From: Catalinimonas alkaloidigena
GTDB lineage: Bacteria; Bacteroidota; Bacteroidia; Cytophagales; Flexibacteraceae
Assembly (NCBI RefSeq): GCF_900100765.1
Contig: NZ_FNFO01000005.1
Coordinates: 1 to 64,000 of the forward strand
Direction of reading: 5' to 3'
DNA length: 64,000 bases
The translations under genes were made by a program, and so were the position numbers. Below are positions 7,024 through 21,590 of this stretch, one piece after another. Numbering within the stretch: position 1 is the first letter of the stretch; every line of letters begins with the position of its first letter. A model generated the notes under the pieces. The model ran no database searches. It saw only the letters and a list, made by a program, of their open reading frames with translations, and was not told where the DNA came from.

Positions 7024-7205
7024 AGCTCAGGTGTGTAGGTGTCGGGCGTTGCCGCGCAGGGTTCCCCGACAAAGGGGGTGGTGGACGCCTGACGAGGCAG
7101 GGGCACGCAACGCTCCTTTAAGTTCTACAATAACCTACGTAAAACAAAATAGGTTGCCGGTTTGGAAAAAGAATGGCGCAACGGCAACGGGGAGCGGGAA
7201 AGGGC
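7024..7205. other. gene-free upstream region of the 5440-7023 gene
   Basis: No coding potential was seen. It presumably holds the promoter of the minus-strand secreted protein, but no clean TAnnTTTG element was found. Confidence 0.4.
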
Positions 7206-7280
7206 AAAAAAAAAGACAGCCAACCCCACCACAAGTTGACTGTCCAAACAACCTACATTTGAAAGTCCATCTGACTTTCT
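7206..7280 (-). ncRNA. repeated small RNA, copy 1
   Basis: A predicted transcript of about 75 nt on the minus strand. It begins a few nt after TACCTTTG with hairpin GAAAGTC-AGATG-GACTTTC, then a 16-nt single-stranded linker (AAATGTAGGTTGTTTG). It ends with terminator stem GACAGTCAAC / GTTGGCTGTC (10 bp, one G-U, 10-nt loop) and nine T. It differs from copies 2 and 3 by one base in the first loop. That change creates a six-codon ORF (ATG GAC TTT CAA ATG TAG) absent from the others, so coding is not conserved. No annotated gene overlaps it. The RNA is inferred from promoter, folds and terminator; its function is unknown. Confidence 0.8.
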
Positions 7281-7284
7281 GTTA

Positions 7285-7343
7285 CAAAGGTACCTACAGG
7301 GCCCAGCGGCACAAAACCCGACTGCCATTTTTCAAATCTTTTT
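7285..7343 (-). promoter_or_regulatory. promoter of small RNA copy 1 with AT-rich upstream element
   Basis: TTG (7314-7312) is 19 nt from TACCTTTG (7292-7285) on the minus strand. Upstream lies AAAAAGATTTGAAAAAT (7343-7327), which is shared with copy 3 and nearly with copy 2, although the spacer between the promoter elements differs. It looks like a strong, UP-element-assisted promoter. Confidence 0.8.
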
Positions 7344-15591: not shown

Positions 15592-17181
15592 ATGAAACAG
15601 TTCGCGCAGCTCTACCAACAGCTGGACCAGACCAACAAAACCAACAAGAAAGTCGCCATCCTGAAGGAGTACTTCCAGACGGCCAACGACGCTGACAAGA
15701 TATGGACCATCGCGCTGTTTTCGCACCGCCGCCCCCGCCGCCAAGTCAACACCACACAACTGCGCCAGTGGGCCACCGAAGCGGCCGACATTCCGCTCTG
15801 GCTTTTTGAGGAATCGTACCACGTGGTGGGCGACCTGGCCGAGACGGTGGCGCTGCTGTTGCCGCCCCCGGACAGCACGAGCGATCGCAGCCTTTCGGAA
15901 TGGATCGACTGGCTTCAGACGCTGTCGGCTATGCCCGAGCCGGAACGCAAGGAAGCGCTGGTATCGGCCTGGCGGGAACAGACCCCGGCCGAGCGGATGG
16001 TATTCACGAAACTACTCACCGGCAATTTCCGGATCGGCATTTCGCGGAACCTGATGGAACGCGCGCTGGCCGAAGCCACAGAGGTGGAAAAGGCGTCGCT
16101 CTCGCACCGATTGATGGGCAACTGGCAGCCCGGCGAAACTTCGTTCGAGCAACTGATTTTGCAGGAAGATGCTGATGAAGATCATTCGCGGCCCTACCCT
16201 TTTTTCCTCGCGCATCCGGTCGAAGAGCCGGAAACGTTGGGCGAGCCGAACGCCTGGCAGGCCGAATGGAAGTGGGACGGCATCCGGTCGCAAACGATCA
16301 AACGCAACGACACGCTCTACATCTGGTCGCGCGGGGAGGAACTGGTCACCGACAAATACCCTGAGCTGGCCCCGTTGGGCGATTACCTGCCCGAAGGGAC
16401 GGTCATCGACGGCGAGCTGTTGCCCTTCCGGGACGGGCGGCCGCTGCCCTTTGGCATTCTGCAAACGCGCATCGGCCGCAAAACCCTCACGCCCAAACTG
16501 CTGAAAGAAGCACCGGTGGTCATCTACGCCTACGATCTGTTGGAGTGGCAAGGCGAATCGCTGCGGTCCCAACCGCTACACGAACGTCGCGCGATGCTCG
16601 AGCGGTTGGTAGAAGATGTACACCTGCCCATCCTCCACCTGTCACCCAAAGTGCCCTCGGTCAGTTGGGAGGCCCTCCGTGAATTGCGCAGCACCGCCCG
16701 CGAGTTCGGGGCCGAAGGGCTGATGCTGAAACGGCTGGAGTCGCCCTACCGCGTGGGGCGGCAACGGGGCGACTGGTGGAAATGGAAAGTGGAACCGCTG
16801 ACGATCGACGGCGTACTGGTCTACGCGCAGCGCGGCACCGGCCGCCGGGCCGACCTCTATTCCGACTACACCTTTGCCGTGTGGGATGGGCCCAATCTGG
16901 TACCCTTTACCAAAGCCTATTCTGGCCTGACCGACGCCGAAATGCGCCGCGTCGATGCCTTTGTGAAACGCAACACACGGGAGAAGTTCGGTCCCGTCCG
17001 GACGGTCACACCGAAGCTGGTCTTTGAACTGGCCTTCGAAGGAATTCAGGCTTCCAAACGACACAAATCGGGCGTGGCGCTCCGCTTTCCGCGCATCCTG
17101 CGCTGGCGCGAGGACAAACCCAAAGAAGAAGCCGACACGCTGGAAACCCTGCAGGAAATGCTACAATTGTACGGGAGTTAG
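15592..17181 (+). CDS. ATP-dependent DNA ligase (ligase-associated DNA damage response type)
   Basis: A 529-residue ligase that seals nicks using ATP. An N-terminal helical DNA-binding domain (about 1-200) precedes the nucleotidyltransferase domain with motif I WKWDGIR (lysine about 227), motif III GTVIDGELLPF and motif V WWKWKVEP. A C-terminal OB domain follows (about 400-529). Length and the GVALRFPRILRWREDKP ending match the ligase of the ligase-associated repair cluster, normally found with a DEXH helicase, a metallo-beta-lactamase exonuclease and PdeM. Here only the helicase is nearby, on the same strand at 18489, and an SPL-type gene on the opposite strand lies between them. Confidence 0.9.
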   Translation: MKQFAQLYQQLDQTNKTNKKVAILKEYFQTANDADKIWTIALFSHRRPRRQVNTTQLRQWATEAADIPLWLFEESYHVVGDLAETVALLLPPPDSTSDRSLSEWIDWLQTLSAMPEPERKEALVSAWREQTPAERMVFTKLLTGNFRIGISRNLMERALAEATEVEKASLSHRLMGNWQPGETSFEQLILQEDADEDHSRPYPFFLAHPVEEPETLGEPNAWQAEWKWDGIRSQTIKRNDTLYIWSRGEELVTDKYPELAPLGDYLPEGTVIDGELLPFRDGRPLPFGILQTRIGRKTLTPKLLKEAPVVIYAYDLLEWQGESLRSQPLHERRAMLERLVEDVHLPILHLSPKVPSVSWEALRELRSTAREFGAEGLMLKRLESPYRVGRQRGDWWKWKVEPLTIDGVLVYAQRGTGRRADLYSDYTFAVWDGPNLVPFTKAYSGLTDAEMRRVDAFVKRNTREKFGPVRTVTPKLVFELAFEGIQASKRHKSGVALRFPRILRWREDKPKEEADTLETLQEMLQLYGS

Positions 17182-17197
17182 CGACCCATCACCTTGC

Positions 17198-18256
17198 TTA
17201 CGTCCAGTACAAAATAGGCGCCTGAGGAAAACGCCGGGCCAGTTCGTCGGTGAAGAACATCCGCAGCGCACGCATCTCCTCGGGACGATACACGTATTTC
17301 AGGCCGCCGAACTTGTTCCGCTTGACCGCCCGCTGTGCCTCGTCCATCTCCAGTTTCGACTGCGGGTACCACCGTTGCAAAACCTCTTTGGAGCCGGGCG
17401 TGAACCGGTGGCTGATCAACTCAAACGTCAGGTCAACAGGAAAATCCAGCGTGGCCTGCAAGGCGTCTAGCAATTGGCCGTAGTGCTGCGGCCAGTCTTC
17501 CAGCGGCATGATCGGCGCAAGCACTACGCCGACCGGGTAGCCTGCCTGCGCAAGCTGCCGCAAAGCCGCCAGCCGATCCGGAAGCGACGAGGTCCCCGCC
17601 TCCAGGTATCGCGCGACCGGGGCGGCATTCAGACTGATTCGCGCCCGTGTCCGTCCCGCGTGCGGGAGATTCAACAGCGGCGCTACCTGATGAAACTTGG
17701 TAACCCAGCGCAACTGCGTGCCGGGACGCGTCGCGAAATGTTGGATGGCAGTCGACAAACTGCCCGTCAGGTGTTCCAGCGACAGCGGATCGGTGTAACA
17801 ACTGGCTTCGAAGGTGGTCACCTGATGGGGCCGTTCATAGGCTTGGGTCGCTTCCAGAATGGCGGGCAGGTTGGCGTACGCCCGCACCACCGGCGGCCCC
17901 TGCAAACTGCCCGCCAGGTAACAATACTGACAGTGGGCCGGACAGCCCTGCGCCAGGTGAAACTGCCAGTCGGCGGAAGGCGGAATCGGTTGGAATTTCA
18001 GGGCACTGGGCGGGGCGTTGACAATCGCCAGCGTTTGTTTCGCCTGACGGTAGGTTTCCCGCTCGGTGGCTCCCCGCAAACCCGTCAGCCGGTTGGACGA
18101 CAAGACCTCGACGGGCAAACCCAAGCGAGTAATCCGCTCGTAGATGCGTTGCCCGAACGGTTCGCGCAGGGTATCCGGCGTAAACAACACCCGTTTGGGA
18201 TACCAAAGGCGTGACGCACGACCAGCAATGGGCTCGACAGAAAAGGAATCGATCAT
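17198..18256 (-). CDS. SPL family radical SAM protein (spore photoproduct lyase-like)
   Basis: A 352-residue radical SAM enzyme. The cluster-binding CxxxCxxC is CPAHCQYC (Cys 105, 109, 112), followed by YLAGSLQG. Other SPL-family marks are RLWYPKRVLFTPDTL at the N-terminus, FEASCYTDPLSLEHLTGSL, and the end KYVYRPEEMRALRMFF. Known members reverse spore photoproduct or related thymine lesions. This bacterium is not expected to sporulate, so the substrate is uncertain, but the setting between a repair ligase and a repair helicase supports a DNA-lesion role. It is convergent with the ligase gene (16-nt gap). Confidence 0.85.
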   Translation of the reverse strand: MIDSFSVEPIAGRASRLWYPKRVLFTPDTLREPFGQRIYERITRLGLPVEVLSSNRLTGLRGATERETYRQAKQTLAIVNAPPSALKFQPIPPSADWQFHLAQGCPAHCQYCYLAGSLQGPPVVRAYANLPAILEATQAYERPHQVTTFEASCYTDPLSLEHLTGSLSTAIQHFATRPGTQLRWVTKFHQVAPLLNLPHAGRTRARISLNAAPVARYLEAGTSSLPDRLAALRQLAQAGYPVGVVLAPIMPLEDWPQHYGQLLDALQATLDFPVDLTFELISHRFTPGSKEVLQRWYPQSKLEMDEAQRAVKRNKFGGLKYVYRPEEMRALRMFFTDELARRFPQAPILYWT

Positions 18257-18488
18257 ATAAAAAATATCCTATATACCACAACACCTTACCCGAACAGAAC
18301 GTTTCTCAAAATCAAGCCCAATCTGCAATTAAATCGGCACATCAATCCCTGGAATTCAGGGTTTAGAGAGCACCACCTATTTCGCAACAAAATACCATTT
18401 CCACCTCACCACACATGAACCTTTCTTCTCCGCGCGACGAGTCCGTTGACTTGATTTTCGCAGAACCTACGGCCCCTTTTCCCGGTTT
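18257..18488. other. divergent intergenic region between SPL gene and helicase
   Basis: About 230 nt with an AT-rich half (18257-18400) that should contain the promoters of the two divergent repair genes. No exact TTG-N19/20-TAnnTTTG match was found. Confidence 0.35.
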
Positions 18489-20966
18489 ATGTTCCTGATG
18501 TCTACACTCTCCCCTCTGCACCATTGGTTCCACGCGCGCGGCTGGCAGGTATTTCCGTTTCAGGAAGAGACGTGGCAGGCGTTCCTGGAAGGCAAAAACG
18601 GTCTTCTTAACGCACCGACGGGGAGCGGGAAAACGCTGGCCCTGTGGGGTGCCTGCGTTGCCGATTACCTCCACGACCATCCCGACGCCTGGCAAACGCC
18701 GCGCAAAAACGGGCTGCGGGTACTGTGGATCACGCCCCTGCGGGCGCTGGCGAAAGACCTGCAAAAGGCGATGCAGGGTTTCTGCGACGACCTCGGCTTG
18801 CCCTGGCGGGTCGAGTTGCGCACCGGCGATACCTCCTCTTCGGTACGGCAAAGGCAACTTAAAAGTCCCCCTGAGTGCCTCATCATCACGCCCGAAAGTT
18901 TACACATCCTGCTCAGTCAGAAAGACGCCCGCCGACTGCTGGGGCAGGTCCGCGCCTGTGTGGTAGACGAGTGGCACGAGCTGCTGGGCAACAAACGCGG
19001 GGTGCAAGTCGAACTGGGGCTGGCCCGGCTGCGGGAATTCCGTCCCTCCGGCTTCCGGACGTGGGGCATCTCGGCCACCATCGCCAACCTGGAAGAAGCA
19101 CGCGACGTGCTGCTGGGAGAATCCTGGCCCGGGCGAACGGACCAGCGGGTCATTGTACGCGCCGAGCTCGACAAACGACTGCGGCTACAAACCTTGTTTC
19201 CCGATCGCATCGACCGCTTTCCGTGGAGCGGCCACCTCGGCCTGCAGATGGTCGAGAAAGTGTTGCCCATCATTCAGCAAAGCCGCACCACCTTGCTCTT
19301 TTGCAACACGCGGGCGCAGACCGAACTCTGGTACCGGCAACTGCTGGAAGCCGACCTTACGCTGGCGGGACAAATCGCGATGCACCACGGATCCATCGAC
19401 GCTCAGATTCGTAGTTGGGTGGAAGAGGCCCTGAAAGAAGGCCGCGTCAAAGTGGTGGTCTGCACGTCGTCGTTGGATTTGGGCGTTGATTTCGCGCCGG
19501 TAGAGACCATCGTGCAGATCGGCAGTACCAAAAGCCTCGCGCGGCTTCTGCAACGGGCCGGGCGCAGTGGGCACCAACCCGGGGCTGAAAGCGTCCTCTA
19601 CTTCGTCCCGACGCATGCGCTCGAACTCATGGAAGCGGCGGCCTTTAAAGAAGGCATCCGGCGCCACGTGATCGAAGGGCGGGCACCCTTGCAGGCTCCC
19701 ATCGACGTGCTGGCGCAATACCTGGTGACGCTCGCCGTGGGCGAAGGCTTCCGGGCGGACGAACAGTTCGACGTGGTCACGTCCACGCACGCGTACCGCA
19801 ATTTATCACTCGACGAATGGGACTGGGTGCTGCATTTTATCACCACAGGCGGGGCCAGCCTCGGCGCGTACGACGAGTTCTCACGGGTCGACGTTACCGA
19901 CGATGGCCTTTTCCGCATTGCCAGCCGCAAAGCCGCACTGCGGCATCGCCTCGGCATAGGCACCATCGTGAGCAACCCTATGCTCCGCCTGAAACTGGTG
20001 GGTGGCTCAACCATCGGGCAGGTGGAAGAGAATTTTGTGGGCAAACTGGAGCCGGGCGACACGTTCTGGTTTGCCGGGCAGGTCCTGGAGTTTGTGCGCC
20101 TGAAAGAGCTGACGGTATTCGTGCGGAAAGCGCGGCGCAAAACCGGTGTGCTGCCCCGCTGGCAGGGCAACCGGATGCCGCTTTCGTCGGTCCTGGCCGA
20201 CCTGTTGCGGGAAAAGATGGAAGAGGCAGCGCACCATGAAATCGTGGACGAAGAACTGGTCGCCCTGCAACCCTTATTCGACGTGCAGCGCGGCTGGTCG
20301 GCCCTGCCCGAGCGACAGGAATTGCTGGTAGAACATGTAAAAACCCGCGAAGGTTACCACCTGTTTCTCTACCCATTCGAAGGGCGCGTGGTCCACGAAA
20401 TGCTCGCCACCCTGTTTGCGTATCGGTTCAGCCAGCTGCGCCCGGTGTCCATTTCGTTCGCCAGCAACGATTACGGCCTGGAACTACTGGCCGATCAGCC
20501 GTTTCCGCTGGAGCTGTTGGAACAAGGCGGGCTGTTCAGTGCAGAGCACCTGAGGGAAGATCTGCAACAGGCTGTTCACACCAGCGAACTGACCAGTCGG
20601 CGCTTTCGCGAAGTCGCGGTCATTGCCGGGCTGGTGTTTCAGGGATATCCGGGGCGGCCTCTGACGGGACGCCATTTACAGGCCTCTACCAAACTGATGT
20701 ACGACGTCATGCAACGCTACGATCCGCACAACCTGCTGTTGCAACAGGCCCATCGGGAGGTGATGGAAGGGCAACTGGAAAGCACACGACTGCACCACGT
20801 GCTGATGCGGCTCCAGGCACTCACGCCGCTGGTGCAGCAACCGCCACGCCCCACACCTCTCGGCTTCCCCATTCTGGTAGACCGGATGCGTGAAACCATT
20901 AGCTCAGAAAAACTGGAAGATCGGATTGCCAAGATGACGCTCCAACTAGAACGGGCACTGGAGTAA
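18489..20966 (+). CDS. ligase-associated DNA damage response DEXH-box helicase (Lhr-like)
   Basis: An 825-residue SF2 helicase. Walker A is NAPTGSGKT (Lys about 48), motif II is DEWH (about residue 160), motif III GISATIAN, and motif VI QRAGRSGHQPG near 360. A Lhr-like winged-helix and C-terminal domain runs to 825. This is the DEXH helicase that co-occurs with the ATP-dependent ligase at 15592, so both likely serve a shared DNA repair pathway. The ATG at 18498 (MSTLSPLHHW) is an equally good start. The transcript ends facing small RNA copy 2, which is on the opposite strand 32 nt downstream. Confidence 0.9.
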   Translation: MFLMSTLSPLHHWFHARGWQVFPFQEETWQAFLEGKNGLLNAPTGSGKTLALWGACVADYLHDHPDAWQTPRKNGLRVLWITPLRALAKDLQKAMQGFCDDLGLPWRVELRTGDTSSSVRQRQLKSPPECLIITPESLHILLSQKDARRLLGQVRACVVDEWHELLGNKRGVQVELGLARLREFRPSGFRTWGISATIANLEEARDVLLGESWPGRTDQRVIVRAELDKRLRLQTLFPDRIDRFPWSGHLGLQMVEKVLPIIQQSRTTLLFCNTRAQTELWYRQLLEADLTLAGQIAMHHGSIDAQIRSWVEEALKEGRVKVVVCTSSLDLGVDFAPVETIVQIGSTKSLARLLQRAGRSGHQPGAESVLYFVPTHALELMEAAAFKEGIRRHVIEGRAPLQAPIDVLAQYLVTLAVGEGFRADEQFDVVTSTHAYRNLSLDEWDWVLHFITTGGASLGAYDEFSRVDVTDDGLFRIASRKAALRHRLGIGTIVSNPMLRLKLVGGSTIGQVEENFVGKLEPGDTFWFAGQVLEFVRLKELTVFVRKARRKTGVLPRWQGNRMPLSSVLADLLREKMEEAAHHEIVDEELVALQPLFDVQRGWSALPERQELLVEHVKTREGYHLFLYPFEGRVVHEMLATLFAYRFSQLRPVSISFASNDYGLELLADQPFPLELLEQGGLFSAEHLREDLQQAVHTSELTSRRFREVAVIAGLVFQGYPGRPLTGRHLQASTKLMYDVMQRYDPHNLLLQQAHREVMEGQLESTRLHHVLMRLQALTPLVQQPPRPTPLGFPILVDRMRETISSEKLEDRIAKMTLQLERALE

Positions 20967-20997
20967 GCCGACGGAGGTGAATTCGGCCGGATAGGAC

Positions 20998-21071
20998 AAA
21001 AAAAAGACAGCCAACCCCACCACAAGTTGACTGTCCAAACAACCTACATTTGAAAGTCCGTCTGACTTTCT
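20998..21071 (-). ncRNA. repeated small RNA, copy 2
   Basis: The predicted transcript matches copy 3 base for base. It has hairpin GAAAGTC-AGACG-GACTTTC, linker AAATGTAGGTTGTTTG (containing a bare start-stop ATG TAG), terminator stem GACAGTCAAC/GTTGGCTGTC, and eight T. It lies convergent to the helicase gene and 383 nt from copy 3. Flanking sequence and the promoter spacer are not conserved while the RNA is, which indicates selection on the transcript. Its function is unknown. Confidence 0.8.
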
Positions 21072-21075
21072 ATTA

Positions 21076-21133
21076 CAAAGGTAACCCCACGGACCACATC
21101 TGCAAAACCCCTCCTTCATTTTTCCAATCTTTT
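21076..21133 (-). promoter_or_regulatory. promoter of small RNA copy 2
   Basis: TTG (21105-21103), 19-nt spacer, TACCTTTG (21083-21076). The upstream AT element AAAAGATTGGAAAAAT (21133-21118) resembles that of copies 1 and 3. Confidence 0.8.
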
Positions 21134-21375
21134 CATGATCCTTTACCCAGAGGTTAGAGATTCGCAACACCATCCTCATATTTCAAGCAATTATTACCAA
21201 TAGTACAGTCATTTCTGATAACCAACCTCAAAACCAGAGCCACTTTCTCGAAATGTAGATCAATTTTCCAAAAACAGCTTCAATTTCAAAGCAAGCTCTT
21301 TCCAATCCGTATGCTTCATCAGAAGCGATGTGGCAGCCTTGACAGGCTCCCGTCACGTCTGGTTTTCCTAAATGC
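21134..21375. other. gene-free spacer between small RNA copies
   Basis: AT-rich, with no coding frame that looks real. It has no recognisable repeat apart from the terminator-like hairpin at its right end. Confidence 0.4.
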
Positions 21376-21407
21376 AAAAAGCCAACCGAGGTAACCCGAT
21401 TGGCTTT
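21376..21407 (-). terminator. intrinsic terminator
   Basis: The minus strand forms an 11-bp stem (AGCCAATCGGG with CCTCGGTTGGCT, including G-U pairs) and ends in TTTTT. Confidence 0.75.
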
Positions 21408-21445
21408 CGCTGCATATCGTTTGCTCCGACGAAGAGTTCGTCAGG
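21376..21445 (-). ncRNA. possible second small RNA unit downstream of copy 3
   Basis: Just past the terminator of copy 3 the minus strand repeats the same layout with different sequence. There is a short perfect hairpin GACGAA-CTC-TTCGTC (21442-21428), a linker, and a terminator stem AAAGCCAA / TTGGCTTT (21378-21407, extended by inner pairs) followed by five T. No promoter of its own was found, so it could be a read-through product, a second terminator, or a processed RNA. Confidence 0.4.
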
Positions 21446-21453
21446 AATAAGAC

Positions 21454-21527
21454 AAAAAAAAGACAGCCAACCCCACCACAAGTTGACTGTCCAAACAACC
21501 TACATTTGAAAGTCCGTCTGACTTTCT
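21454..21527 (-). ncRNA. repeated small RNA, copy 3
   Basis: Its transcript is identical to copy 2: 5' hairpin, 16-nt linker, 10-bp terminator stem and eight T. Its promoter spacer is 20 nt instead of 19. It is followed on the same strand by the terminator-bearing unit at 21376-21445. The App1-like gene lies beyond its promoter and is also on the minus strand, ending about 170 nt away. Confidence 0.8.
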
Positions 21528-21531
21528 ATTA

Positions 21532-21590
21532 CAAAGGTACCCACACGGCCCAGGGTCGCCAAACTAAGGGCTTATTTTTCAAATCTTTTT
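21532..21590 (-). promoter_or_regulatory. promoter of small RNA copy 3
   Basis: TTTG (TTG at 21562-21560), 20-nt spacer, TACCTTTG (21539-21532). The upstream element AAAAAGATTTGAAAAAT (21590-21574) is identical to that of copy 1. Confidence 0.8.

Follow-up and report, generated by a model that had tools for sequence, protein, structure and literature searches.

Three putative small-RNA genes of Catalinimonas alkaloidigena are tail relatives of a tRNA-like RNA widespread in Bacteroidia

The stretch of DNA analyzed here (the window) covers the first 64,000 nucleotides of contig NZ_FNFO01000005.1. On its minus strand lie three copies, c1, c2, and c3, of a short unit consisting of a promoter-like sequence, a 5′ hairpin, a linker, and a terminator. 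A preliminary description, made from the letters of the DNA, had proposed this layout for c1, with a product of about 75 nt and two further copies near 21.0 and 21.5 kb. All of the named elements were found by direct reading, and the further copies were placed at 20998–21133 and 21454–21590. The features, with the evidence for each in parentheses, are as follows.

7206–7343, minus strand: copy c1, the whole conserved unit from upstream element to T tract (direct reading, genome search, three-way comparison)
7327–7343, minus strand: c1 upstream element AAAAAGATTTGAAAAAT, conserved in c1–c3 (direct reading, three-way comparison)
7312–7315, minus strand: c1 −33 element TTTG, 19 nt ahead of the −7 box (direct reading)
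7285–7292, minus strand: c1 −7 box TACCTTTG (direct reading, three-way comparison)
7261–7279, minus strand: c1 5′ hairpin, 7 bp with a 5-nt loop (folding, shuffle count)
7245–7256, minus strand: c1 single-stranded linker GUAGGUUGUUUG, the proposed pairing region (invariant in 6/6 copies)
7206–7244, minus strand: c1 terminator hairpin, loop with invariant UUGUGGUGG, and nine T (folding, stem comparison)
20998–21133, minus strand: copy c3, whole unit (direct reading, genome search, three-way comparison)
21076–21083, minus strand: c3 −7 box TACCTTTG (direct reading, three-way comparison)
21052–21070, minus strand: c3 5′ hairpin (shuffle count)
21036–21047, minus strand: c3 linker GUAGGUUGUUUG (genome-wide linker search)
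20998–21035, minus strand: c3 terminator and T tract (module alignment, model R2)
21454–21590, minus strand: copy c2, whole unit (direct reading, genome search, three-way comparison)
21532–21539, minus strand: c2 −7 box TACCTTTG (direct reading, three-way comparison)
21508–21526, minus strand: c2 5′ hairpin (shuffle count)
21492–21503, minus strand: c2 linker GUAGGUUGUUUG (genome-wide linker search)
21454–21491, minus strand: c2 terminator and T tract (module alignment, model R2)

The c1 promoter reads TTG (7314–7312)-N19-TACCTTTG (7292–7285) and is closely resembled by those of c2 and c3. It is followed by the hairpin GAAAGTC-AGATG-GACTTTC (7279–7261) and, after the linker, by the terminator stem GACAGTCAAC/GTTGGCTGTC (7244–7235/7224–7215), which spans 10 bp and runs into nine T at 7214–7206. 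In every copy, the hairpin stem measures 7 bp and its loop 5 nt; 16 nt of linker separate it from a terminator stem of 10 bp, after which come eight or nine T. The predicted RNA folds at −26.5 kcal/mol (z about −4.5), and the sequence of the 5′ hairpin occurs exactly three times in the window, against 0.02 expected from shuffles.

A gapless three-way comparison of the copies revealed near-invariance from the −7 box to the T tract, as the preliminary description had stated; however, an element AAAA(A)GATT(T/G)GAAAAAT, located about 35 nt upstream of the −7 box, is conserved too. This element was missing from the earlier text, yet it falls inside the span that had been assigned to c1, and it is a possible UP element or regulator site. 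Identity in the spacers and outer flanks drops to 5–40%, which bears out the divergence noted before. A nearly invariant RNA stretch set among diverged spacers is the pattern expected under selection on the product. That product is almost certainly not a peptide. A 67-aa ORF crosses c1 (7125–7328) and a 77-aa ORF overlaps c3 (20946–21179), as a short protein-coding gene would have it, but c2 contains stops in every frame, and none of the frames can be read without interruption across c1–c3. In the c1 loop, a five-codon ORF hangs on one base that c2 and c3 do not share, so that it is confined to c1, as had been recognized.

The copies have different neighbors. Next to c1 are, on one side, an ORF that matched nothing in Pfam and, on the other, a gene for a secreted protein, whereas c2 and c3 have genes for an Lhr-type helicase and an APP1-like phosphatase at their sides; a Pfam check of these neighborhoods found no adjoining Lrp/AsnC gene. 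At 15592–20966, genes for an ATP-dependent DNA ligase, a spore-photoproduct-lyase-like radical SAM protein, and an Lhr-type helicase lie next to one another. A second terminator-like hairpin (AGCCAATCGGG..CGGTTGGCTTTTT) stands directly downstream of c2 on the minus strand, at 21370–21410.

A genome-wide model search and an inspection of stem covariation had been suggested as checks on the proposed family. Model R2 returned six linker-terminator modules from the 7.1-Mb genome at 67–83 bits, the next match scoring 16.8 bits, and no other strong match was found. The three copies of the window are therefore joined by three more of the 3′ module, d1–d3, arranged in tandem on contig C8. The linker GUAGGUUGUUUG and the terminator loop UUGUGGUGG are invariant in all six. 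The terminator stem CAGUCAAC/GUUGGCUG of the c cluster is replaced by CAGUCAGA/UCUGGCUG in the d cluster through compensatory changes; across the six copies, three pairs have changed on both sides and 98% of cells remain paired.

Three copies inside 14 kb of one contig might also be the mark of a small mobile or repetitive element (REP, MITE, or cassette) carrying promoter-like and terminator-like sequence by chance. We consider this highly improbable, as the copies have no matching ends or longer repeats around them and the 7.1 Mb hold no further copies apart from d1–d3. Membership in a longer mobile element had been named beforehand as an observation that would speak against an RNA gene family. 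The module does prove to be part of something longer, but that is an RNA (described below), and the tail pattern of this genome was absent from viral contigs and had no match in phage records (plasmid search: none).

The longer RNA is intact in d3, where the order is promoter, 7-bp hairpin, 146-nt tRNA-like stretch, tail, and terminator.

C8:260086–260231 (L007:10086–10231; L007 starts at C8:250000), minus strand: d3 tRNA-like RNA, intact, about 230 nt with hairpin and tail

The d3 RNA has a tRNA-Leu-type body with a giant variable arm, a loop ending in GUCUC, and G73, and its tRNA-like domain scores 130 bits with model R3. In this genome, R3 matched only d3 and ordinary tRNAs, and c1–c3 are without a tRNA-like domain. 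d1 contains a reduced tRNA-like stretch that keeps the T arm and lacks the anticodon arm, and d2 contains none. The 5′ hairpins of the c copies and d3 are alike in position and shape and unlike in sequence. c1–c3 are tail relatives of the tRNA-like RNA and not full members. The multicopy RNA gene family of the preliminary description is upheld by the anatomy, the compensatory stem changes, and the lack of a common frame, but it is not an isolated 75-nt family, since the same 3′ module also ends a larger tRNA-like RNA here and in relatives. That c1–c3 are genuine RNA genes related to this tail is, in our judgment, very probable.

A pattern for the anticodon arm of the tRNA-like RNA matched at least 120 DNA stretches in named genomes, nearly all of them Bacteroidota. 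Among the matches listed, from which 86 distinct RNAs were cut, are Dyadobacter, Runella, Emticicia, Cyclobacterium, Algoriphagus, Belliella, Flammeovirga, and Reichenbachiella, together with Catalimonadaceae, Saprospiraceae, and Chitinophagales and Flavobacteriales bins. The RNA forms a cloverleaf whose variable arm is very large, at about 40–110 nt (GGAG..GGGAUAAA..insert..CUAACCG..CUCC). In an alignment of 38 sequences, 94.7% of cells are paired and 143 double-sided changes occur, compared to 46 ± 8 in shuffled alignments and at most 49 in slid controls. A second set of 37 sequences was found by model instead of pattern in a partial sample of 392 genomes of the phylum and was aligned to the model; here 94% of cells are paired, with 156 double changes against 46 ± 7 shuffled. 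This set displays the 7-bp acceptor, the 5-bp T stem, and the tertiary-contact bases of a cloverleaf, and U8, G9, and the UUCGA T-loop are invariant in it. Model scores across the 392 genomes are bimodal, with members above 90 bits and ordinary tRNAs at about 65 or less. Members occur in the order of the window; elsewhere in the class they were found in three other families, and beyond the class in one, and many other families of the sample have ordinary tRNAs only. The tRNA-like domain is widespread in Cytophagales and other Bacteroidia. ARAGORN made no call on d3, relatives, or the loci tested, Rfam 15 gave no match where tested, and no description was found in the open-access literature searched; the RNA is apparently undescribed and looks like a new family. 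Five tandem matches to it, spaced at 197 bp, were seen in Flammeovirga pacifica (L076:3798–4614).

Decoding tRNAs have U33 and a purine at position 37. In the second set, positions 35–38 are UCUC in 37/37 sequences, so that position 37 is U throughout, while G34 is present in 34/37 and U33 in 29/37. The fixed pyrimidine at 37 and the variable position 33 argue against decoding; in a genome of the same family as the window (G010), the anticodon loop is lost altogether. The four best non-self matches in the C. alkaloidigena genome are tRNA-Leu genes, more than 70 bits below d3, which assigns the body to the Leu type. G73-C74 is found in 37/37. The main identity set of AspRS consists of G73, G34, U35, C36, and C38, of which G34 is kept in 34 sequences of the second set and the other four in all 37; position 10 is mostly A and not G. 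We raise aspartate charging of the RNA purely as a hypothesis. The loop CUGUCUC might conceivably serve as antisense to 23S rRNA. A pairing between the D-loop and the anticodon loop was considered and dropped, as it is broken by GGCAGCC variants.

Among canonical tRNAs, the nearest relative by model score is the class II tRNA-Leu, with which the RNA shares U8, the D-loop GG, and the T-loop UUCRA. It differs in having G73 in place of A73, the loop GUCUC with a pyrimidine at 37, and the long variable arm. Like tmRNA, it is tRNA-like with added structure and occurs in the same phage arrays, but it receives no tmRNA call, and ARAGORN finds a separate tmRNA beside it. The closest conceptual precedent for the tRNA-like RNA is tRNA-Other of Bacillus cereus, which is tRNA-like, does not decode, and lies within a longer regulatory RNA with a flank complementary to mRNAs (PMC3399842). 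The anatomy predicted here from sequence, a tRNA-like element in a longer, tailed RNA, agrees with this. However, tRNA-Other, a pseudo-tRNA, is located at a genomic island of one Bacillus, whereas the present RNA is widespread in Bacteroidia, Lrp-linked, phage-borne, and equipped with a giant variable arm.

The association of domain and tail was followed through related genomes. In the same family, the order is as in d3, with a related tail, UUUUUGGUUAAUUUGGUGUAUUAAUAGGUAGUUU, about 30 nt of which is near-invariant across several genera. A DNA search with the RNA of one relative matched 10 of 11 family genomes and 6/6 genera, some genomes matching in the tRNA-like part alone or the tail alone. 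Outside the family, model R2 found just two weak, unconvincing matches (L015 and L019) among 291 genomes of the order. Cyclobacterium and its relatives have a local tail of their own, TTTTGGGTTTATTGTTAATTGACTAAAGC, present at 1–8 copies per genome in nine genomes, with none for the reversed control. Among 30 copies read and sorted by eye, 24 come after a complete tRNA-like domain and five after a reduced T-arm form; the remaining one (L288) is free-standing. The sharing of a tail among full, reduced, and one tail-only form thus recurs in Cyclobacteriaceae, and reduced forms are present in the family of the window as well. Reduced RNAs with T arm and acceptor, no recognizable anticodon arm, and a shared tail were seen at L270, L271, L277, L279, and L286 and at L030, L031, and L032; they are possibly a second RNA type.

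Such recurring reduced and tail-only forms (d1, d2, L270, L271, L277, L279, L286, L288) are what decay would give, and the stem is that of an ordinary intrinsic terminator. The module could then be a mere terminator with a spacer, and c1–c3 inert relics of partly deleted tRNA-like genes. We regard this as quite unlikely, as relics would drift evenly, whereas the promoter box, 5′ hairpin, linker, and loop of c1–c3 are near-invariant and the spacers have diverged. We instead view c1–c3 as the most compact version of a detachable tail, with its own promoter and hairpin.

A further property of the tRNA-like RNA is its genomic position. Among the matches listed, an Lrp/AsnC homologue is divergent from the nearest RNA copy, at 131–208 bp, in 34/34 loci that hold one, and 30 loci with enough room contain no such homologue; all of these loci were obtained with a single pattern and are mutually related. 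d3 and the inspected loci of the same family have the divergent arrangement likewise, as judged by reading the sequence, and AsnC_trans_reg was confirmed by Pfam for the neighbor of d3. This fixed place opposite one Lrp/AsnC gene makes the regulatory question directly testable. An upstream A/T-tract pattern (such as TGTAATTTTTAAAAATATTCATTAAAATATTTGCAAT), which may be a regulator site, is kept at L083, L091, L103, L105, and L113, also where an adjacent Lrp gene is missing.

The pattern of the tRNA-like RNA was also found in 34 viral contigs and confirmed in 34/34 at 83–128 bits. Several viral copies sit in tRNA arrays, some with tmRNA, a hint that the RNA could act in translation or in the takeover of the host. 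A phage origin of the contigs is supported by portal and terminase genes in one case and, in another (L222), by QueC/QueE-like genes near the RNA. Array-borne copies were noted at L204, L207, L211, L214, L219, L222, L228, and L229, several of these contigs having their own tmRNA gene, and the phage record LR756504.1:133311–133457 (636 kb, metagenomic) contains a 76%-identical match to the L219 RNA.

The preliminary description knew of no Bacteroidota RNA with the layout of c1–c3. This agrees with Rfam: the window gave tRNAs only at the gathering threshold, and cmscan of the loci of c1 and c2, with E values up to 5 allowed, gave no match, so a known Rfam family was rejected for the c copies. 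The FopS alignment is deposited in Rfam (PMC11697453), and membership in that family is therefore not indicated. Nevertheless, FopS/GibS of Bacteroides thetaiotaomicron are multicopy paralogous sRNAs of similar size, about 65–70 nt, most of them with a sigma-A-type promoter of their own; their single-stranded seed precedes an intrinsic terminator, and pairing takes place where translation is initiated (PMC11697453). c1–c3 are likewise multicopy, short, putatively promoter-driven, and ended by an intrinsic terminator, while FopS/GibS have no described 5′ hairpin, no link to a tRNA-like RNA, and a different seed.

The sequence expected at start codons if the linker pairs there is AACAACCT. The first ATG was used as a crude approximation of each gene start. 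In an exploratory half, drawn from part of the genome, linker 7-mers numbered 17 against 13.1 expected and 8-mers 5 against 3.2. In the fresh half, with search interval, core, and word length fixed beforehand, the counts were 28 against 14.2 (2/400) and 10 against 3.6 (6/400). Pooled over 1761 genes, there were 45 7-mers against 29 (0/119 dinucleotide-preserving permutations) and 15 8-mers against 7.1 (1/119), and no excess was present 95–130 nt upstream of the starts of the pooled genes (14 against 16.6). Control loci from other Bacteroidota without the tail lean the same way, below significance (22 against 18.2), so the signal may stem in part from a composition common to start sites in general. 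Over the whole genome, there were 35 sites with at most one mismatch, a count that includes the six genes, compared to 24 with the pattern reversed, which is no clear excess. This modest enrichment at starts in the own genome suggests base-pairing repression, a mechanism that we put forward tentatively, at somewhat less than even probability.

Alternatively, the tail may bind a protein, and c1–c3 would be sponges that titrate it from the full tRNA-like RNA or from mRNAs. The near-invariant tail stretch across genera is longer than a typical seed, linker and terminator loop are both invariant in 6/6 copies, and the RRM protein RbpB binds multicopy sRNAs in Bacteroides (PMC11697453). The sponge model does not predict the complementarity to start codons, however, and we hold it to be unlikely.

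The explanation that we favor, and consider somewhat probable as a whole, is that c1–c3 are stand-alone sRNA genes, tail-only paralogues of the tRNA-like RNA that act through linker pairing. In the parent RNA gene, a promoter and a 5′ hairpin precede the tRNA-like domain, and a single-stranded tail and the terminator come after it; an intact copy persists in d3 beside its Lrp/AsnC gene. In c1–c3, there is no such domain, and the hairpin leads directly into the tail linker. They would be transcribed from their own promoters as sRNAs of about 75 nt, would be protected by hairpin and terminator, and would pair through GUAGGUUGUUUG with A/C-rich sequence at translation starts and block initiation, as do FopS/GibS. 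With one genome of the genus at hand, tail-only genes could in principle have preceded a fusion in this lineage; the far wider spread of the tRNA-like form counts against that order. If our explanation is true, c1–c3 show an sRNA family arising through loss of a tRNA-like domain. The trail of a 75-nt repeat thus ends at a structured RNA that is spread over Cytophagales, Saprospiraceae, Chitinophagales, and related groups and also occurs in their phages. A broader conjecture, which is doubtful in its entirety, takes c1–c3 as tails set free from a hitherto undescribed class of bacterial RNA. This RNA would derive from tRNA-Leu, would not decode, and would possibly be charged with aspartate; controlled by the adjacent Lrp/AsnC regulator and carried by phages in tRNA/tmRNA arrays, it would link amino-acid status to the control of mRNAs via an antisense tail that was released as free sRNAs on repeated occasions.

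Few sRNA mechanisms are known in the phylum, and c1–c3 would add three small genes that can be deleted and whose pairing region is predicted. The best single site, CCAAACAACCTACctATG, belongs to an M16-peptidase lipoprotein gene that stands behind a TACCTTTG box, and its 13 complementary nt lie two bases ahead of the start. The Lrp/AsnC gene beside d3 also has a 9-nt match upstream of its start.
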